The notes: a model not told the origin generated them from the letters alone. A stretch of DNA of 64,000 bases from Candidatus Raymondbacteria bacterium RIFOXYA2_FULL_49_16 (GCA_001789205.1 MFYT01000058.1:74236-138235), one strand, 5' to 3'; positions 39,729-49,537 are shown, counted from the first letter of the stretch. Made by a program: numbers and translations.

Positions 39729-40508
39729 TCAGTCGTCGTGTAATCCCGTGATGACATCCACGATGCGTTGGGCAAAGAGAGGGGCGACTTTCTTTGAAAA
39801 AGCCTCGTTGGGATGCGAATCATCGGGTCCGGCGGCATAGTCCGGTTTCAGATACAGCCCGCCTTCTGTCTCAAGGCCATGAAAATCCCATAGGAAAATG
39901 TTATCACCCTTTTCATCCCAGGTTTTTTTCATCCATGCGGAGAATTCAGCCGTACGCTTGGCCTTGTCTGGGTCGGACGCTGATGCGACAAGCGCCGCGG
40001 GCGTCCAGACAATAAACTTGGTCTTAGGGAACGAGCGCATCTTTTTTTTGAGCGCTGCATACTGGAGCTTGTAATTCTCCAGGGTCTTCCTGTCTGACGC
40101 TATGTCCGGCTTTCCCGAGTCCGGCTGAATGGATGAGACTGGAAAACAATGCTTGAAAACAATGACATCATAATTCTTCGTCAGCATCTCCAGTGTTGGC
40201 TCGTCTGAAAATGGCGCGTCACCCGCATGGTTCACCCATATGTTCCAATAATCAAACGGATAATTGCGCCACCCATAGGGTGTTTTTTTTGGAAATGCCT
40301 GTTCCGTGACCAGATAATTTGTCTTGTTCTTCTTGTTGTATTCATCCATCCATTGGGGGACCCCGCCTTGCCAGACGCAGTTGCCTGTGGAATGGTGAAG
40401 GAAAATAACGCGTGATTCTTTAGGCATGTTCCCTCCCTTTGGCTGAATTGATTGTGTGTACACCGCATTAACCATACACATGATCGTTGCAATTAAAATC
40501 TTGACCAT
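39729..40508 (-). CDS. Secreted SGNH-hydrolase-like protein
   Basis: 259 residues. A hydrophobic N-terminus (VKILIATIMCMVNAVYTQS) is a likely signal peptide. VIFLHHSTGNCVWQGG near residue 35 and DDSHPNEAFSKKVAPLF near the end place it with SGNH-fold esterase-like proteins, the DxxHP motif supplying catalytic Asp and His; the canonical GDS serine block is modified to HHSTG. Predicted esterase or deacetylase acting outside the cytoplasm. Divergent from an AraC-family gene, with sequence elements between them that recur upstream of the DUF362 operon at 47.1 kb. Confidence 0.7.
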   Translation of the reverse strand: MVKILIATIMCMVNAVYTQSIQPKGGNMPKESRVIFLHHSTGNCVWQGGVPQWMDEYNKKNKTNYLVTEQAFPKKTPYGWRNYPFDYWNIWVNHAGDAPFSDEPTLEMLTKNYDVIVFKHCFPVSSIQPDSGKPDIASDRKTLENYKLQYAALKKKMRSFPKTKFIVWTPAALVASASDPDKAKRTAEFSAWMKKTWDEKGDNIFLWDFHGLETEGGLYLKPDYAAGPDDSHPNEAFSKKVAPLFAQRIVDVITGLHDD

Positions 40509-40547
40509 GGACGCCCCCTCTCATGTATCTGGAACCGTTGTCTCACC

Positions 40548-40561
40548 TGTACGTTCTTGCC
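40548..40561. promoter_or_regulatory. Half-site of the AraC-linked element (site A)
   Basis: TGTACGTTCTTGCC at 40548-40561 repeats, with one or two changes, the half-site found at 40603-40616 (TGCACGTTCTTGTC) 55 bases away, and TACACATTCTTGGC at 47151-47164. On the minus strand it reads CAAGAACGTACA. It lies about 40 bases upstream of the SGNH gene, near where RNA polymerase would bind. Likely bound by the neighbouring AraC-family regulator. Confidence 0.55.
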
Positions 40562-40599
40562 AGGCAATATATAAATATATTATATGTTCTCAATGCGGA

Positions 40600-40635
40600 C
40601 AATGCACGTTCTTGTCTTATATTTGGATTTTATTG
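40600..40635. promoter_or_regulatory. Bipartite AraC-linked operator (site B)
   Basis: Two blocks, CAATGCACGTTCTTG (40600-40614) and TGGATTTTATTG (40624-40635), match the blocks CAATACACATTCTTG and TGGATTTTATTG at 47148-47183 with the same nine-base spacer; 28 of 36 positions agree. It ends eight bases before the AraC-family start codon and lies 92-127 bases upstream of the SGNH gene. It would let the regulator control both divergent genes. Confidence 0.65.
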
Positions 40636-40642
40636 TTATTCC

Positions 40643-41530
40643 ATGAGCAAACCTTCGAACTGGCCAATTACTGAAAAGGCCATACGTTTCATCATGCCCG
40701 CGGCCACGGTCGCGGCGCTTGTCAAGCATCCGCTTTCAAGCGACCTGTTCCCCCATGCGGTGGGGTATTATCCCAGCGCGCACGGCCATGTTATGAACCG
40801 GGCGGTCCACGACGACTGGTTGTTCCTCTATTGCGTCCAAGGAAAAGCAACGGTTGCGGCAGACGGCAGGGAATACTCTGTTTCCAAAGGCGACCTCGTA
40901 TTTCTGCCCAATGGCCTCCCCCATTCGTATCGTGCCAGCGAAAAAGAACCCTGGACCATCTACTGGGTGCACTTCACAGGAAAAAAGGCGGCGAACTACG
41001 TTGCCCATCTCTCCAGACTGGCGCATGGGCCTGTGCTACCCATTGGTCTACGGCAGAAACTAGTCGCAGATTTTATTGAACTAGTCGATATAGCGGCAAA
41101 AAACACTGACAACAATCTGCATAAATTTATCTATGCGGCCAATCTGTTAAAACAGATGATATGCTATCTTTCATTGATTAAACCCCGTGCTGATTCAACG
41201 AGCGACACGCCGTTTAACCTTGAACAGGTGCATGCGCTCATGCAGCAGGAGATAGAGGGAAGCATAAACCTGGACACGCTCGCCGCAGGGTGCGGTATGT
41301 CAAAATTTTATTTTGCCAAACGATACAAACAGGTCACTGGCACGTCTCCCATAGCCCATTTCATAAATATAAAAATGGCCCGCGCCTGCCGGCTTATCGA
41401 TATCGGGGACAAAAGCATTACTGAAACCGCGTATGCACTCGGCTATCTGGATACCTATTATTTTTCCCGCATATTTAAAAAAGTTATAGGTATTTCGCCG
41501 CGGCAGTATCGCAATCTGAACAAAGGTTAA
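40643..41530 (+). CDS. AraC family transcriptional regulator
   Basis: 295 residues from ATG 40643; a frame extending to 40523 runs through the operator region and is unlikely to be coding. An N-terminal cupin sensor (DDWLFLYCVQGKATVAADG, GDLVFLPNGLPHSYRASEKE, IYWVHFTG) binds a small ligand, often a sugar. The C-terminal double helix-turn-helix is complete: INLDTLAAGCGMSKFYFAKRY and ITETAYALGYLDTYYFSRIF, ending ISPRQYRN. Convergent with the esterase gene and divergent from the SGNH gene; the surrounding repeated operator suggests it is the local regulator. Confidence 0.92.
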   Translation: MSKPSNWPITEKAIRFIMPAATVAALVKHPLSSDLFPHAVGYYPSAHGHVMNRAVHDDWLFLYCVQGKATVAADGREYSVSKGDLVFLPNGLPHSYRASEKEPWTIYWVHFTGKKAANYVAHLSRLAHGPVLPIGLRQKLVADFIELVDIAAKNTDNNLHKFIYAANLLKQMICYLSLIKPRADSTSDTPFNLEQVHALMQQEIEGSINLDTLAAGCGMSKFYFAKRYKQVTGTSPIAHFINIKMARACRLIDIGDKSITETAYALGYLDTYYFSRIFKKVIGISPRQYRNLNKG

Positions 41531-41542
41531 GTCTGCGCCCTG

Positions 41543-43255
41543 TTATTGGTCCGATTCAGTGCTCCACAATCCGTTGAACACATCAATGAGCCCCGGATAG
41601 GTGACATGCCCGCCATCGTATGAGATGAAGGTAAACGGATGGCCGCGTTTCTTCAACTGCTTTGCCACGCTTTCCGCGTATGAAAAAGGCACGGTAAAAT
41701 CCTGCGGCGAATGCAGGATGATGATGGTGCGCGGTAACTGCTTCGGCATTTCCTTGTTTAAGGACTCTTTATTAAACTCCCAGGTCAGCGCGCCCGCGTT
41801 TGCCACAGCAGCATCGAACATGCCTGGATAATCAAAGACGAAATTCCACGTTCCCATGCCGCCCATTGAAAAACCAGTCACCGCGAGCTTCGTTGAATCA
41901 ATCCGATAATATGAAACAAGCGATCGCAGCATTTGGATTATGTCTTTCTCAACAACATCAACATAATGATAATTGCCGCGCGCCGAGGGTACCACGACAG
42001 GTACGGTAATTTCATCCATGGAACGTTTATAATATCGGGCGTCGCGTTCTACCTCGTATTGTGTGTTGTTTGAGCCATGAAGAAACAGGACAAGAGGATA
42101 TTTTTCCAGCGCCCGGGAAAAATAGGCCTCAGGCATATACAACCGGTATGGACAGAGGGTATCATCCTCGGCTGAATAGAAAGCCATTTCACGCACGCCT
42201 GGCGTGGCAAGTCCAGTAAAATTGTTTGTCGCAAAGGCCGCGATAATGCGTTCGGCAAAGTCGAATTCCTGACGCACGTATTCCCGTGTTACAAGCCGTT
42301 TTGTGTCCTGCTGGTGCTCAACATACCAACCCCGCCTGATATTCTCGATGCAGAGATGCAGGGTTGGAAGCCAGAAGCGTTCGGCCTCTGACAATTTTTG
42401 CCGCTGCTTGTATCTGATAAACGCGCTCTGTATCTTTTTGAACCGGTCATACGCCCTCTCAAATTCCCTGGTGAAACCGCCCACGCGGATTGTATAGACA
42501 CCGTCTTTGGGATTGAGCATGGTGCAGGCGGCCTCTTTTTCACTGGTCAAATTTCCAGCGTAGATATCCTTGCCTCGATCATTGGAAACCGTGCACCTGA
42601 CCACGCCACCCGGATTCTTGTGATCTGAATAAAACAGGGAAAAAGCAACGCTGCTATCAATGCATATTTCCGGATATACCAGAAGCGTAAGAGGGTCCCT
42701 GGTGACAAACCCGTCATCCGTTAATTCTGACTCGTCAGTGATGTATTCGGGCGCCTGCGTTACTATGAGAGATGCAAATCTGGCTCCCCATTCGCGTTCC
42801 TGGATACGGGTTGTGTGCAGACCCTTGTCGAGAGGTACCACTGGTCCGGGATAAAGTATCCATTTTCCCGTTTCGCCGTCATTGCCGAACACCTCATAAT
42901 CCATTGTGTCGATTTTGATCCAGAACGAATTGGAGGCGCCGTCGGTCCAGTAAAAACTGCCAAAAAATGAATACCGGCCTGCTTCGGGGCATTCGAACTT
43001 AAATGCGGCAAAACCCGCCTCTAGCGCGCCTTTTTCACGTGGAACGCCATGCCCCTTTCCTATAGGGGTAGCTATAAATCCTGACGTATTGTCCGTATAA
43101 CTTTTCATGGGAGCAGCAATAGTGTCGGCTTGCGCGGGAAAAATCTTGATAGTCTTCATGGTGTCACGCTGTTCAATTATTATTGTCGGTTCAATAGCGC
43201 ATCCTGTTACAAAAAGCAAAGAGGCCAGCGCCAATAAACTGTCTTTTTTCTGCAT
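41543..43255 (-). CDS. Secreted lipoprotein serine esterase with N-terminal beta-sandwich
   Basis: 570 residues. Signal ends FVTGCAIE, a lipobox. Residues about 40-160 form a beta-sandwich resembling carbohydrate-binding or malectin-like modules (GRYSFFGSFYWTDGASNSFW). After a linker and helical region, the C-terminal 220 residues are an alpha/beta hydrolase of the PHB-depolymerase/feruloyl-esterase kind: LVLFLHGSNN, nucleophile in TGFSMGGMGTWNF, Asp in HSPQDFTVPFSY and His in SYDGGHVTYPG. It probably removes acyl or feruloyl groups from a polysaccharide at the cell surface. Last gene of a four-gene operon; convergent with the AraC-family gene. Confidence 0.85.
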   Translation of the reverse strand: MQKKDSLLALASLLFVTGCAIEPTIIIEQRDTMKTIKIFPAQADTIAAPMKSYTDNTSGFIATPIGKGHGVPREKGALEAGFAAFKFECPEAGRYSFFGSFYWTDGASNSFWIKIDTMDYEVFGNDGETGKWILYPGPVVPLDKGLHTTRIQEREWGARFASLIVTQAPEYITDESELTDDGFVTRDPLTLLVYPEICIDSSVAFSLFYSDHKNPGGVVRCTVSNDRGKDIYAGNLTSEKEAACTMLNPKDGVYTIRVGGFTREFERAYDRFKKIQSAFIRYKQRQKLSEAERFWLPTLHLCIENIRRGWYVEHQQDTKRLVTREYVRQEFDFAERIIAAFATNNFTGLATPGVREMAFYSAEDDTLCPYRLYMPEAYFSRALEKYPLVLFLHGSNNTQYEVERDARYYKRSMDEITVPVVVPSARGNYHYVDVVEKDIIQMLRSLVSYYRIDSTKLAVTGFSMGGMGTWNFVFDYPGMFDAAVANAGALTWEFNKESLNKEMPKQLPRTIIILHSPQDFTVPFSYAESVAKQLKKRGHPFTFISYDGGHVTYPGLIDVFNGLWSTESDQ

Positions 43256-43277
43256 TCATACTCCCTTATATAGCAAA

Positions 43278-44750
43278 TTACTGGTCAAATTCTAAAACAC
43301 CGAATCTTGAAGGCAAATGGTTGTACGTGCCTGTCCATGACCAGACATATGAATCCCGCTTTAATCCTGTCCTGTTTCGTATAAAGTTCAACCCCCACGC
43401 ATTATGAGCGGGATACGCTGCAGTAATCGACTTAAACGGGATTGATAGCGCAATTTCATATCTCCTGGGTTTAAGTGCGGCTTTTATGACCAATCCCTTT
43501 ATAGTGCAAAGCGTATGGGGGGTGTTTTTTAATACTTCAACATTTCCCGCGGCATTGACGACAATCTGATAATATTCGTTGCACGTTCGGCCCGGATCAA
43601 AAAAGAATTCAACGGAATCATCTGAATAAATGGATCGTGTCCTGCTTTTTTCCAGTTTTGACGTGTCTGGCTCATAACAAAGCGCCTTTATATAGATATT
43701 TTTTCTATCGTAAAGGATGCAAAAACGGGTGCTGTCTTCAGCCGAAACACCTTTTTTCACCGAAATCATTTCCGTAACTGCGGCCCCTTTTTGCCACAAT
43801 TCAGTTTTAATATCGGAAATCGATTTCACATCAGCTATCCGGAGCGCGGTTGTTTTTGGCACAGGTTTGTAGGAGAGAGAATCCTGATTGAAAAAGGGCT
43901 GTGTAAAGGCGCGTTTCCTGCCCCGGCCATAGCATTCAAAACGGACATAGGGCATGACGATCTTTTCTACGTCAAACGTGATTGAGCCGGATTTCCCGTA
44001 TGCCAATTCGCAGCCATGCTCGCCAATAGCGACAATGATATCCGCATCGCGGCAGGTGACAACAATTGCCTTATTCTTCATAGTAATATTATTGATTTCA
44101 ATGCCCGTTGATACATAAAAACTACCTCGCTTTAAGGCGTGCAAAATCCCTCGCGGACTTGGATCGTCCGTCAGAATGGTGTTCCAGCATATGCCGACGT
44201 CATGGGTGAAATGGCAGTCATCGTTGCCCATTCCCCATATTCTTTTCCCAGCGGATAGCACTGCGTCCCATACGTCCAGGGCTTCGGCAGACCCGGCATC
44301 GTGATAGCAGTTTCCGTTTATGATTTCTATTCCCAGGTAATTCCGCAGCTTCAATAAAACATCCACCGGCCAATGGTTTAACCCCGGTTCCCATTTCGGA
44401 TGATTCATGATCGCATAGCCGCCCGCGTTGTTTATCGCATCGATCACCGCCTGCCTGTCCGGATCCGGTTTAATTTTATCTCCAATCCCCACTTGAAGCA
44501 TGTGCGGCCCGCCATCGCTCACCTCAACGCCAGGTATCAGAGTCAGCCCCTTGTTGTCTGCGTTGACAAAGCCACCGAAAACATCATGGTCACTTATCAT
44601 TAACACCTTGTACTGCAACCTGGAATACAAATCAATAACGCGCTGTAATTCAAGGCGGCCGTCGGAGTATTTTGAATGCGTGTGGAAATTCGCTTTGATT
44701 TTTCTTCGCAGCCGGAATGTATCCGGATACGGATTTACCATATTTGCCAT
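43278..44750 (-). CDS. PHP-domain phosphoesterase fused to a CBM9/DOMON-like domain
   Basis: 490 residues. The PHP metal motifs are in the N-terminal half: NFHTHSKYSDG, MISDHDVFGG, GVEVSD, MNHPKWEPG and GNDDCHFTHD. A linker (about 230-310) leads to a C-terminal beta-sandwich (about 320-490) with DDSVEFFFDPGRTCNEYYQI and WGLNFIRNRTG ending in a Trp/Gly-rich part, the pattern of carbohydrate-binding family 9-like domains. No signal peptide is evident at the chosen start, odd for a sugar-binding fusion beside lipoproteins. PHP-type phosphoesterase or hydrolase activity is inferred from metal ligands; substrate unknown. Confidence 0.82.
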   Translation of the reverse strand: MANMVNPYPDTFRLRRKIKANFHTHSKYSDGRLELQRVIDLYSRLQYKVLMISDHDVFGGFVNADNKGLTLIPGVEVSDGGPHMLQVGIGDKIKPDPDRQAVIDAINNAGGYAIMNHPKWEPGLNHWPVDVLLKLRNYLGIEIINGNCYHDAGSAEALDVWDAVLSAGKRIWGMGNDDCHFTHDVGICWNTILTDDPSPRGILHALKRGSFYVSTGIEINNITMKNKAIVVTCRDADIIVAIGEHGCELAYGKSGSITFDVEKIVMPYVRFECYGRGRKRAFTQPFFNQDSLSYKPVPKTTALRIADVKSISDIKTELWQKGAAVTEMISVKKGVSAEDSTRFCILYDRKNIYIKALCYEPDTSKLEKSRTRSIYSDDSVEFFFDPGRTCNEYYQIVVNAAGNVEVLKNTPHTLCTIKGLVIKAALKPRRYEIALSIPFKSITAAYPAHNAWGLNFIRNRTGLKRDSYVWSWTGTYNHLPSRFGVLEFDQ

Positions 44751-44803
44751 GATGTCTATTTATATGGTGTAAACCGTTTTAGCGCGTTGCCTGATCTCGA
44801 TGA

Positions 44804-45703
44804 TTATTGGATTTTCTGGTTAATCACGGACAAGAATTCGATATACTTATTTTTCAGGATCTCCCTGTCCCCGCCCTGCGTGGTGTCGGAATAGGAGATG
44901 CCATCAAATTTGACAAAATAGCGGCCTTTGCGCATATAACATCCCAGGTTCCAGGAGCCTTGGATAATAATGGCCTCGTCTCCAAGCGTGTCAAGCACGC
45001 ACGCCGTATCGCTGTACTCAATCGAGGAGGCGAACAGCGATCGGGCAGAATCTGCGTTGGCCATTTCGTCTAAAAAGATGTTGAATGGCCGGTCTTCAGG
45101 ATCAAAGTTCGGGTTATGATAAAACAACTCGTTTTGATATGTGTATGATCTCCAGACGCACCTGATAAACCCTTTGTCGTAGAAAAAGAGGTCAAAGCCA
45201 TCAATTTTATCATTAAAATTTGTAGTATCATACGCTTCAACATATCCGTTAAAAAGGCACGAATCAACCTCGCCCAAAGCTGGCAGTATATTCCCCAGAG
45301 AAATATATTCCACAGGCACATCGGTCGTAAACTCCCACGGGCCGCCAATGCTGCTGTCCTGTCCGTCTGTGGCAATAATACTCCAGAAATACCTGGCTTT
45401 ATACTGCAACCCGCTGGCATGGAACGAAGTGACAGTGCTATCCATCATCTTCCGTTGAGGAGGATTGACCGTATCGAGGTACACCGCGTATGTCAGCGGG
45501 TCATTGTCAGGATCGTTGCAGCTCCAGGAAAGCGTCAGTGTGTCGGCACGGCAGAGGAAGGAGTCTGCGGGCGCCACCGCTGTAACCGCTGCGGGCGCGG
45601 AATTCTCCGGAGCAGTGGGTGTTTGCGTTTTTCCATCCTTTTTTTCGCATGACAGCAGGCCAATGACGCAAAGGACACAGGGCAACAGCCAATACCATTT
45701 CAT
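44804..45703 (-). CDS. Fibronectin type III-like lipoprotein
   Basis: 299 residues. Signal peptide ends IGLLSCEKKDG, a good lipobox. After a Thr/Pro-rich spacer, residues about 40-130 form an Fn3-like domain (LTLSWSCNDPDNDPLTYAVY, ARYFWSIIATDGQD, GPWEFTTD). The remaining 170 residues, including GNILPALGEVDSCLFNGYVE, are an unrecognised beta-rich domain. Anchored to a membrane and facing out. It starts two bases after the DUF362 gene ends, so it belongs to the same operon. Confidence 0.8.
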   Translation of the reverse strand: MKWYWLLPCVLCVIGLLSCEKKDGKTQTPTAPENSAPAAVTAVAPADSFLCRADTLTLSWSCNDPDNDPLTYAVYLDTVNPPQRKMMDSTVTSFHASGLQYKARYFWSIIATDGQDSSIGGPWEFTTDVPVEYISLGNILPALGEVDSCLFNGYVEAYDTTNFNDKIDGFDLFFYDKGFIRCVWRSYTYQNELFYHNPNFDPEDRPFNIFLDEMANADSARSLFASSIEYSDTACVLDTLGDEAIIIQGSWNLGCYMRKGRYFVKFDGISYSDTTQGGDREILKNKYIEFLSVINQKIQ

Positions 45704-45705
45704 TG

Positions 45706-47070
45706 CTATCTCCTCACAATCAGTTTTCGGGCAACAGAGGCGCTTCCTGCGACAATACGGTACACATAAACCCCATTGGGAACCACGCGTCCATCAAAAG
45801 CATGGCCGTCCCATACCATGGTTGAGCGGCCTTGGGTTGCTCCGGATCTCCAGACCATCTTGCCGGTCAAATCATATATGCAGATCCGCGGTTTGTACTT
45901 CATAAGTTCGGCGGACACTGTGTAGGCAATGGCCGTGTTTAGGCTGACAGGATTAGGCGAGTTTTGCTCAAGTCCCAATCCGCCAGTCATGGCCATCTTT
46001 TCGCTGTCAAGGGCGGTTGTCAGTGTGCCGTTAATAAATTCCCGGTAGTCCCAGTGCTGATCAGACTCATCGCCCACGCCGTAATCCGCGTTTTGAGCGG
46101 CAGTGATGAGGTCATACCTCCCGGATCCGTACGTTGCATCGTTCATATCTATACGAAATATCTTTCTGCCCAAATAATCGACTACAACAGGATCCGTGCT
46201 CATGATAATGGTGCAGGGATCGGTTTGGGTGGAACTAGCGCTACGCATTGATGTTGCATAGGTGGTAAAGGTCTGTTCGCTGCCATTGTATCCGCCTTTT
46301 GTGCCCTTGGTGGCATCCAACAGCGTGAAAACCGTTTTATCCTTGATAATGCCGCCGCACCGGTTGTTTATAAGGTCCGCGGAGTTGTTCGGGCACCCTA
46401 CGGGGTTGTGGCTTCCAATGTGGTTCTTGAAGCCAAGGGTAATGGAACCGACACTTTCCCAATGCGTCTTTATGACCGGGATATTGATGAGATAATCCGC
46501 GTTGTACACACAATCAGCGATGTTCCTGCCGGCCGTGGCATCAGAGTGGCTCGCGCCGCTTGGACCTACGACAATGCCAGGAAACCGGGCCGCAGAATAT
46601 GCTGTCCATCCTGAGGTGCCAAGGTCGTAAATGGAAATATTGGCCGCGGGAAACGTGCCCCCAAGCATGGAAACAAGGCCATTGGTCACTGCCTGAACAA
46701 CCTGCCAGTGGGTCTTTGTGGTAAATGTGTTGTTCACCTTGATCGCTATTTTTTTTGATGTGGATATAGGGTTTGACGCGGGAAAAATAGCCTCCCATGC
46801 GGCGGCAACTGAAGACTCTCCGGTGAGGTCCATGATGCTTTCGTCGATCATTTGTTTGACCGTCGCATATTGCACTACTCCGGACACAACCGCACTTTCG
46901 TTGAAATTCAGAACACCCCTGCCTGGCCATTTGTTGCCCGGAAAAGCCATGGTTCGCAATGTTCCGGCAAACACTCCACCCGGAGATGAAAGGTTGGCTG
47001 CCATAAGGGCAATTGTGGAAGCCCCTGTTGTTTGCAGAAAACCGCGCCGGGAAATTCTGTTTTTCTTCAT
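45706..47070 (-). CDS. DUF362 protein with Tat signal and type IX-like sorting domain
   Basis: 454 residues. The N-terminus KKNRISRRGFLQTTGAST is a twin-arginine signal. The central DUF362 domain (about 90-340) includes KIAIKVNNTFTTKTHWQVV, INIPVIKTHWESVGSITLG, FKNHIGSHNPVG and TDPVVVDYLGRKIF. The C-terminal 85 residues (NSPNPVSLNTAIAYTV ... GVYVYRIVAGSASVARKLIV) are a type A sorting domain. Tat export combined with type IX sorting is uncommon and implies folding, perhaps with a cofactor, before surface display. Leads the operon DUF362-lipoprotein-PHP/CBM9-esterase. Confidence 0.85.
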   Translation of the reverse strand: MKKNRISRRGFLQTTGASTIALMAANLSSPGGVFAGTLRTMAFPGNKWPGRGVLNFNESAVVSGVVQYATVKQMIDESIMDLTGESSVAAAWEAIFPASNPISTSKKIAIKVNNTFTTKTHWQVVQAVTNGLVSMLGGTFPAANISIYDLGTSGWTAYSAARFPGIVVGPSGASHSDATAGRNIADCVYNADYLINIPVIKTHWESVGSITLGFKNHIGSHNPVGCPNNSADLINNRCGGIIKDKTVFTLLDATKGTKGGYNGSEQTFTTYATSMRSASSTQTDPCTIIMSTDPVVVDYLGRKIFRIDMNDATYGSGRYDLITAAQNADYGVGDESDQHWDYREFINGTLTTALDSEKMAMTGGLGLEQNSPNPVSLNTAIAYTVSAELMKYKPRICIYDLTGKMVWRSGATQGRSTMVWDGHAFDGRVVPNGVYVYRIVAGSASVARKLIVRR

Positions 47071-47147
47071 AAATAATCCCCCACGTTATATTTTTATACT
47101 ATCTTGCTGATACATATAATAACATAATATGATAACTTTAATTTTTG

Positions 47148-47183
47148 CAATACACATTCTTGGCTGTAAGATGGATTTTATTG
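47148..47183. promoter_or_regulatory. Bipartite AraC-linked operator (site C)
   Basis: Blocks CAATACACATTCTTG (47148-47162) and TGGATTTTATTG (47172-47183) repeat site B at 40600-40635 with identical spacing and strand. It lies 78-113 bases upstream of the DUF362 gene; an AT-rich segment between them can hold the promoter. The identity in non-coding DNA 6.5 kb apart is best explained as a shared regulator-binding site. Confidence 0.65.
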
Positions 47184-47203: not shown

Positions 47204-49537
47204 CTACTTCAGTACCGCGCCTTTTTTCTTCAAAACACTGCCAATGGCATCAGCCAGGCCACTGATGGTAAAAGGCTTTTGGACAAATCCCAACGCTCCA
47301 TCCTTCAAGGTTTGGTTTATCTCTTCGCTGCGCGAATATCCAGACACGATCAGCGCCCGTATTGCGGGATCAATCTCTTTGAGCCTGCGGAAACATTCGT
47401 GACCATCCATGACCGGCATCATCATATCGAGCAGCACCAGATCAATACCGCCCTTCATGGACCTGTAGGTTTCCACAGCCTCTGCGCCATTTGCCGCATA
47501 AACCACGCTGCATCCTAATTCGGCAAGCACCTCTCCGCAGATATCGTGGACATGTCCCTCGTCATCAACTACCATGACCGTGCCCGACAACGCTTGGACT
47601 GCGGCATTGGCCGCAGGCCCGGTTTGCGCGTCCATAGAGCCTGTGACCGATGGAAAATAGATTTGAAACGCGGTGCCTTGACCAAGCGTGCTCTCCACCT
47701 CAATATACCCGCCGTGGCTTTTAACAACGCCATACACGCTCGAAAGACCGAGTCCCGTGCCCTTGCCCTTTTCCTTAGTGGTGAAAAAAGGCTCAAAGAT
47801 ACGCGCCTTGGTTTGTTTATCCATGCCTGTCCCTGTGTCTCTGACCGTGAGATTCAGGTAAGAACCAGCGACAACCGCGTACGACTTTGACCGGGCGAAT
47901 TCCTGGTCCAATGCAACTTCGCTGGTTTCGAACGAGAGCATACCGCCCCCAATCATGGCGTCACGCGCATTTACAGCGAGGTTGATAAAAGAGTTTTGGA
48001 GCTGAACTCTGTCACCAAGCATAAAGGGGTTCTGCGCCAGATAAGTGGTCTCAATGGTAATGTTTTTCTCCAGCGTATGTTTAAGAATCTCCACGGAATC
48101 GGTAAGAATCTGATGCAGGTCGACCACAACCATTTCAACCGGGCTCTTCCTGGCAAAGGTCAGAAGATTACCGATCATTGCTGACGCCTTGCCGGCAACA
48201 TCGACGATTTTTTCCGCATACCGCGCGGCCCGTTCATTGGCCTCTGCCTTGTCACGCCTTATAAGATCAGCGAAACCCGATATGGCGGCAAGAAAATTGT
48301 TGAAGTCGTGTGAAATACCGCCTGCCAGCTGGCCAATGGACTCAAGTTTCTGCGACTGGAAAAGCTGGCTCTCGAGTTTCTGCCGCTCCTCATCGGCCTT
48401 TTTCCCCTGAATGACCTTTTCCTCGAGCGTTTTGTTCGCCGCGACAAGTTCAACTGTCCGTGCCGTTACTTTCTGCTCCAACAGCTCATTGGCCCGTTTT
48501 AGCTCTTTCCTGATGTTTTTCTGCACACTGATATCACGCGCAACGCATAAGTATCCATAATCTGACATCTCGGAAACCATAATACTGACCGAAATTTCTT
48601 TGCCGCTTTTCGCCCTTAACAGGGCCTCCTGTCCAGACCGGCCTATATACCTGTCTATATCTCTTATAACGGCAGCCTGCGAAAAGTCTGAAACCACGAG
48701 GTCCTGGAAACGCTGTCCCTCAATGCCTTCGCGCGAGAAACCGAGCAGATCGAGGGCAGCGCTATTCGCGAAAGTAATGGCCCCGCGGGGAGAGAAAATA
48801 AAAAGCGCGTCACCAAGGGCGGAAACAATAGAGTCCGCGGCAACCGTGGTGGTTATACCAAGAAACTGGTAACGGTTGACCGCATAGGTTATTCCCGCGG
48901 CCCAGATGAGGATGACCACATCAGCCATGGGGGGGATCCAGAAAAGGCCCATCTGGCGTGCAATTATGTTAAAAAAGGTTCCCAAACCAAAAGGAATAAG
49001 ACCGAATACCAGGATAAAAGAGGCTTGCCTCTTCCTGATCTTGTCACGTACAGTCTGCCGGTATACAGCCATCAGGAAAAAACCAGCACTTGTGCAAAGC
49101 GTGAGATAGCAAAGATAATACAACGCTGCCGGACCCTGGAACCGCCCCATCCATCCGTGCCAGTACAAAGCATACCCGGTTATCAGGCTGCCGCGCCATT
49201 GGGAGAGTAAAAGGAGCAGTTGCACAATAAAAATGCCTGCTAAGGAGGCAATGACTGCCCTCTTTCTTCCTGTAAAAAACAGGGCAAAGGTAAAAAAAAG
49301 ACCGGGAAACCCTATCCACCCAATGGCCGCGATATTGTCGAAAAGTATGGCGGTTTCCCTGCTCACATGGGGATTACTGACAACACCATACCCCACACTC
49401 CAGATTGAGAATAAAGAAAGCAGAAGAAATAAAATCCTGTTTTGCCAAGACCGCGCGTCGAGACGCAGCACTACAGCGCCAAGAATGGCATAGACCGTTG
49501 CGCTGATCACATGGAGATAGGTAAGTATAAGGGCCAT
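47204..49537 (-). CDS. Hybrid sensor histidine kinase/response regulator
   Basis: 777 residues from ATG 49535-49537; a GTG six codons upstream is also in frame. Seven N-terminal membrane helices (1-225) match the histidine-kinase 7TM sensor, then a PAS domain (about 235-335; DALFIFSPRGAITFANSAAL), a coiled-coil, HisKA with phospho-accepting His410 in GGISHDFNNFLAAISGF, an ATPase domain (TVRDTGTGMDKQTKARIFEPFF, GKGTGLGLSSVYGVVKSHGG) and a C-terminal receiver with Asp in DLVLLDMMMPVMDGHE. Probably transfers phosphate to a separate partner. It stands alone between the DUF362 operon and a divergent MBL gene; signal unknown. Confidence 0.93.
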   Translation of the reverse strand: MALILTYLHVISATVYAILGAVVLRLDARSWQNRILFLLLSLFSIWSVGYGVVSNPHVSRETAILFDNIAAIGWIGFPGLFFTFALFFTGRKRAVIASLAGIFIVQLLLLLSQWRGSLITGYALYWHGWMGRFQGPAALYYLCYLTLCTSAGFFLMAVYRQTVRDKIRKRQASFILVFGLIPFGLGTFFNIIARQMGLFWIPPMADVVILIWAAGITYAVNRYQFLGITTTVAADSIVSALGDALFIFSPRGAITFANSAALDLLGFSREGIEGQRFQDLVVSDFSQAAVIRDIDRYIGRSGQEALLRAKSGKEISVSIMVSEMSDYGYLCVARDISVQKNIRKELKRANELLEQKVTARTVELVAANKTLEEKVIQGKKADEERQKLESQLFQSQKLESIGQLAGGISHDFNNFLAAISGFADLIRRDKAEANERAARYAEKIVDVAGKASAMIGNLLTFARKSPVEMVVVDLHQILTDSVEILKHTLEKNITIETTYLAQNPFMLGDRVQLQNSFINLAVNARDAMIGGGMLSFETSEVALDQEFARSKSYAVVAGSYLNLTVRDTGTGMDKQTKARIFEPFFTTKEKGKGTGLGLSSVYGVVKSHGGYIEVESTLGQGTAFQIYFPSVTGSMDAQTGPAANAAVQALSGTVMVVDDEGHVHDICGEVLAELGCSVVYAANGAEAVETYRSMKGGIDLVLLDMMMPVMDGHECFRRLKEIDPAIRALIVSGYSRSEEINQTLKDGALGFVQKPFTISGLADAIGSVLKKKGAVLK

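Follow-up and report, generated by a model that had tools for sequence, protein, structure and literature searches.

A candidate 21-bp tandem operator shared by an AraC-family regulator gene, a probable SGNH-type hydrolase gene and a DUF362 operon in Candidatus Raymondbacteria

Background

Regulators of the AraC family usually act as dimers on two half-sites, as on araI1-I2 of Escherichia coli, and in the presence of ligand the promoter-proximal subunit contacts RNA polymerase at the -35 region; a tandem pair of half-sites that ends at -35 is the usual layout of activators of this family. We describe two copies of a 36-nt element, termed O1 and O2, which lie 6.5 kb apart in a stretch of 64,000 nucleotides from Candidatus Raymondbacteria bacterium RIFOXYA2_FULL_49_16 (GCA_001789205.1 MFYT01000058.1:74236-138235, hereafter "the window"), and which very probably are bound by an AraC-family protein encoded next to O1. 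They precede a probable SGNH-type hydrolase gene and a four-gene operon that begins with a DUF362 gene.

In E. coli the araI1-I2 half-sites are direct repeats 21 bp apart, of which the promoter-proximal one reaches -35. The elements of the window share the direct repeat with its 21-bp spacing and TCCAT in half-site 1, and a reach to -35 is suggested for O1 by a promoter-like sequence described below. The best NCBIfam match of the window regulator is likewise AraC (PRK10572), but at 82.7 bits it lies under the equivalog cut-off of 208 for the arabinose regulator; its targets are different, and it has no identified distant site of the kind called O2 in E. coli.

A second related system is MmsR (PA3571) of P. 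aeruginosa, which according to PMID 1339433, as cited in PMC8151288, is an AraC/XylS family positive regulator adjoining mmsAB. The LysR-type regulator that also bears the name MmsR in P. denitrificans and P. putida is unrelated to the AraC-family MmsR (PMC11683335). As in P. aeruginosa, homologues of the window regulator diverge from mmsA-type genes (loci L105 and L110), and the homologue in locus L021 is accompanied by a HIBADH gene; this likeness to MmsR is one of gene context. The homologues beside mmsA and HIBADH genes have the same bipartite operator as the window regulator. In contrast to MmsR, the window regulator diverges from an SGNH-type gene, a DUF362 operon lies downstream of its proposed second site, and the genome's own methylmalonate-semialdehyde dehydrogenase gene mmsA (contig C57) was checked and has no operator site. 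In the library searched, no paper was found that reports the operator motif or binding sites of MmsR.

Results and discussion

Two copies of a tandem element

The candidate operators and the regulator gene are located as follows.

40600-40635, minus strand: candidate operator O1; half-site 1 CAATAAAATCCA at 40624-40635 and half-site 2 CAAGAACGTGCATTG at 40600-40614, 21-bp period
47148-47183, minus strand: candidate operator O2; half-site 1 CAATAAAATCCA at 47172-47183 and half-site 2 CAAGAATGTGTATTG at 47148-47162, 21-bp period
40643-41530, plus strand: AraC-family regulator, the proposed binder, with an N-terminal cupin/AraC_binding domain and a C-terminal HTH_18 domain; start set by alignment with homologues

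The regulator has a C-terminal AraC-type double helix-turn-helix that scores above the curated cut-offs (PF12833: 67.9 bits, cut-off 33.6; PF00165: 69.7 bits, cut-off 26.6) and an N-terminal AraC-like ligand-binding cupin (PF02311: 80.3 bits, cut-off 21.1). Its DNA-binding half is 43–53% identical to that of most Pseudomonadota homologues, against 34–44% for the sensor half.

O1 and O2 are identical at 28 of 36 positions, at the coordinates and with the count that an earlier note on this DNA had given, and on the minus strand they read CAATAAAATCCAAATATAAGACAAGAACGTGCATTG and CAATAAAATCCATCTTACAGCCAAGAATGTGTATTG, respectively. In an ungapped all-against-all comparison of the same-strand 36-mers of the window they form the top-scoring pair, and a single other pair reaches 27 identities. 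The earlier note had described a bipartite element; two blocks are indeed present, but a direct repeat describes them better than a pair of unrelated sequences does. On the minus strand both copies have the form CAATAAAATCCA-N9-CAAGAAyGTGyATTG, and 8 of 14 nt are identical at an offset of 21 in O1 and likewise in O2, which beats every other offset from 14 to 28. Conservation and internal identity favour the direct repeat over an inverted-repeat reading based on the CAAT...ATTG ends, and the latter was therefore rejected. The O1 repeat is directed at the SGNH-type gene (start 40508), and its opposite end lies 7 nt, not the eight bases counted previously, from the start codon of the regulator gene (40643). 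The O2 repeat is directed at the DUF362 gene (start 47070). A histidine kinase gene, which ends at 47204, and the DUF362 gene flank it, and since both are on the minus strand, O2 would serve the DUF362 operon in that direction.

Searches of the 5.43-Mb genome were carried out with mismatch patterns, and chance expectations for matrix scores were obtained by simulation. O1 and O2 are the sole genomic matches to their consensus, even with 3 mismatches, and a reversed control pattern has 0 matches; with up to 3 mismatches the consensus was also found 0 times in 100 shuffles. Looser operator patterns with 3 mismatches allowed add just 2 or 3 further places, which is at chance level. Many copies unrelated to these genes, for which the earlier note had proposed to look, are therefore not present. 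A weak operator-like place is found at C71:72894 (L100:1501-1536), with a score of 13.0 in the matrix described below, of which about 1 to 2 are expected by chance; an alpha/beta hydrolase open reading frame begins 463 nt downstream of it, and the place is unproven as a target.

Conservation of the element with homologues of the regulator

When genomes of bacterial species were scanned, a homologue 43% identical to the window regulator was found in a Halioglobus metagenome-assembled genome (L021). There CAATATAATCCATAAGAATCGCAACTTCCTCCCTTG precedes the regulator gene by 46 nt, oriented as in the window, and the regulator gene is divergent from a five-gene operon. We drew 70 homologous gammaproteobacterial loci from relatives of this genome and called an element when at most 5 of 19 specified positions were mismatched (shuffled sequence gives about 8.7). 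By this measure CAATATAGTCCAT-N8-CAAtTTcGTCAAT is present upstream of the regulator gene in 66/70 loci, and its spacing and orientation are the same in all of them. The commonest upstream 8-mers, counted without use of the window, are pieces of the operator: ATAGTCCA occurs in 42 of the 70 loci, with a shuffled maximum of 6. The tandem structure is also present in these sequences, as in 77 homologue sites the first 14 nt agree with those 21 nt further on at a mean identity of 0.71, against 0.16–0.30 at other offsets. In several gammaproteobacterial loci (L045-L047, L050, L051, L053, L055, L056 and L096) just 3–5 nt separate the end of the operator from the regulator's start codon, and a TATATT in the operator could act there as the -10 element of a leaderless or near-leaderless regulator mRNA.

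An independent search was made with a matrix of 36 columns that was derived from 65 distinct sites of homologues, the window sites being excluded. Over the window it places O1 first (18.2) and O2 second (15.7), followed by a third place at 3.75, and the maximum in 40 simulated windows is 9.6. A score of 15.6 was met 3 times in 120 million simulated positions, which corresponds to 0.27 expected in the genome on both strands. Given the same scan, 11 of 11 further Pseudomonadota loci score above 10, and in two Bacteroides loci the regulator gene is preceded by a site, scoring 15.5 in one and 19.1 in the other. The former belongs to Bacteroides fragilis (L022), where the regulator is 31% identical to that of the window and the operator-like site lies between the regulator and a divergent gene.

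These results bear on the view that O1 and O2 stem from a recent local duplication, or are alike by chance, and have no function. Such an origin would agree with the presence of just two copies 6.5 kb apart, yet they are alike in the two blocks only, with a diverged 9-nt spacer in between; in addition, a matrix made without them recovers both, shuffled sequence yields 0 matches, and the conservation across phyla contradicts it, so we consider it scarcely credible.

The earlier note had guessed from proximity that the AraC protein binds the element, and phylogenetic footprinting, with the 66/70 gammaproteobacterial loci and the Bacteroides homologue, supports this guess. On account of the operators of the homologues, the 21-bp tandem structure and the ranking by the independent matrix, the regulator very probably binds both O1 and O2. 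The element could instead be the site of a different regulator, encoded elsewhere, which controls araC, SGNH and DUF362 genes together and of whose regulon the AraC protein is a mere member, and a position upstream of the regulator gene is what would be expected of any site controlling araC. However, the element travels with homologues of the AraC protein across Proteobacteria, Bacteroides and the phylum of the window, while the other genes change, and the 21-bp tandem layout suits AraC-family dimers; we regard such a foreign regulator as very improbable.

Several observations weigh against O1 and O2 as operators of the AraC-family protein. Both score below nearly all training sites of the matrix (range 10.7–55.3, most above 35). 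One Pseudomonadota homologue (L115) has no operator site in the scan, nor do two Tannerellaceae homologues by the matrix scan, and a Niastella homologue has just a weak reversed match (8.1). In addition, no good sigma-70 match was found near O2 for the promoter of the DUF362 operon. The low scores suggest that the branch of the window has drifted from the gammaproteobacterial consensus, and if the regulator binds O1 and O2, its preference must have drifted with it.

Promoters and proposed mode of action

The following features lie around and downstream of the two elements.

40574-40602, minus strand: promoter-like TTGTCC-N17-TATATT of the SGNH-type gene, a consensus match only
40548-40559, minus strand: possible third half-site CAAGAACGTACA, 55 nt downstream of half-site 2 of O1, suggestive only
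47095-47106, minus strand: possible third half-site CAAGATAGTATA, 56 nt downstream of half-site 2 of O2, suggestive only

The TTG of the candidate -35 hexamer of the SGNH gene is formed by the final 3 nt of O1, so that half-site 2 would overlap the -35 region. With a layout of this kind the regulator, once liganded, is most likely an activator of the SGNH gene and of the DUF362 operon. An AraC-type dimer would place its two subunits side by side on one face of the DNA, at head-to-tail half-sites 21 bp (two helical turns) apart. In the minus-strand promoters half-site 2 would reach into -35, where the proximal liganded subunit could contact RNA polymerase. In this way the regulator would, when bound at O1, activate the SGNH gene and, when bound at O2, the four genes of the DUF362 operon. 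Because O1 lies directly before the start codon of araC, covering the DNA there, the same binding event would probably lower the expression of araC. We thus infer protein binding, activation over repression, and autoregulation, and assign a probability of about 0.83 to the reading that O1 and O2 are operators from which the regulator encoded at 40643-41530 activates the SGNH gene and the DUF362 operon and limits its own gene.

The same overlap of O1 half-site 2 with the -35 region would also suit a repressor, which might bind both elements and, with half-sites that include a possible third one, keep the SGNH and DUF362 promoters blocked or looped as long as it is not released by an inducer. 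The half-site at 40548 given in the earlier note is real, and a comparable one at 47095-47106 was missing from its list; these extra CAAGA-type half-sites lie at +76 and +77 from the operator start, within the presumed leaders, a near-identical place in the two promoters. However, their scores of 4.2 and 2.1 are within the shuffle range (5% of shuffles reach 6.7) and not significant alone, no enrichment of a third half-site was found in the homologue loci, and a tandem pair ending at -35 is typical of AraC-family activators. Repression from both elements therefore appears unlikely to us and activation remains the preferred reading; the near-equal position of the third half-sites in the two window promoters is suggestive of a possible extra control point.

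Predicted target genes

The genes that O1 and O2 are predicted to control are all on the minus strand.

39729-40508, minus strand: probable SGNH/GDSL-type hydrolase with a signal-peptide-like N-terminus, predicted O1 target (motifs and low-confidence model)
45706-47070, minus strand: DUF362 protein with a C-terminal Por_Secre_tail-like domain, gene 1 of the O2 operon (domain matches)
44804-45703, minus strand: lipoprotein-like protein with a weak fn3 match, gene 2 (domain match)
43278-44750, minus strand: CehA/McbA-type PHP metallohydrolase domain and CBM9-like domain, gene 3 (domain matches)
41543-43255, minus strand: alpha/beta-hydrolase esterase related to short-chain polyhydroxyalkanoate (PHA) depolymerases, gene 4, convergent with araC

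Two labels of the earlier note are kept with qualification. The label "SGNH" is based on motifs, a weak Pfam GDSL match (E-value 0.11) and a single-sequence model of low confidence (mean predicted local distance difference test 57, predicted template modelling score 0.62), whose best PDB matches are GDSL/SGNH esterases (E-values about 1e-4 to 1e-3, template modelling score about 0.5); the product of 39729-40508 is a probable SGNH-type hydrolase or esterase. For the "surface operon", a surface or export character of the DUF362 operon is suggested by the C-terminal sorting-like domain and the signal-peptide-like N-termini.

The gene at 41543-43255 resembles extracellular short-chain PHA depolymerases (NF050058, E-value 3e-16, under the curated cut-off). 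Elsewhere in the genome (C6:4133-5500, L013) a DUF362 paralogue 58% identical to that of the window belongs to an operon whose proteins have C-terminal sorting-like tails and esterase-like domains. This operon was considered as a further target of the regulator and rejected, having no operator site.

Distribution and change of the regulon

Neither the regulator (at E-value 1e-25) nor the SGNH gene (at E-value 1e-8) was found in 166 other genomes of the phylum. The family pattern of the operator has 18 matches at 2 mismatches in these genomes and none at 0 or 1, against one match at 0 mismatches and one at 1 in the genome of the window. These controls suggest that the regulator was probably gained from outside the phylum.

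In the sampled Pseudomonadota the divergent targets are genes of valine and C3-C4 acid catabolism. They encode a CoA-acylating methylmalonate-semialdehyde dehydrogenase in L105 and L110 (TIGR01722 above cut-off), an acyl-CoA dehydrogenase in L106, a propionate-CoA ligase-like protein (prpE) in L107 and an IcmF-like isobutyryl-CoA mutase in L116, whereas the operon of the Halioglobus locus encodes an acylating aldehyde dehydrogenase, an acyl-CoA dehydrogenase, an enoyl-CoA hydratase, a 3-hydroxyisobutyryl-CoA hydrolase and HIBADH. In B. fragilis, by contrast, the targets are a sugar porter (XylE-like, the divergent gene) and carbohydrate enzymes. Set against the SGNH gene and the DUF362 operon of the window, these targets indicate that the operator site was kept while the genes under its control changed. 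Judged by its sequence features, the system belongs to a known type, that of AraC-family regulators with an araI1-I2-like tandem operator, and its regulon has changed. Very probably the regulator governs its own gene, the gene of a probable esterase and an operon of four genes, whose products are mostly exported and which its relatives do not control. As to the ligand, a small carboxylic or hydroxy acid is a guess only, made because the regulon includes two hydrolases and the relatives have C3-C4 acid genes as targets. Tentatively, and with more doubt than belief, one may go further and suppose that the operator code of one AraC subfamily is conserved in at least three phyla despite the exchange of genes, which range from valine and C3-C4 acid catabolism through sugar uptake to the secreted hydrolase/DUF362 set of the window, and that a third half-site, gained here at a constant position downstream of both promoters, adds a second layer of control.

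Conclusions

Our analysis assigns a candidate binding site to a regulator whose genome has just phylum-level relatives among those compared. The small regulon proposed with it consists of araC, the SGNH gene and the DUF362 operon with its four genes. DUF362, CehA/McbA-PHP and esterase proteins would thereby be joined in one proposed response. The half-site consensus CAAtAtaGTCcAT, together with the 21-bp tandem spacing, may be used to find regulons of the same AraC subfamily elsewhere.

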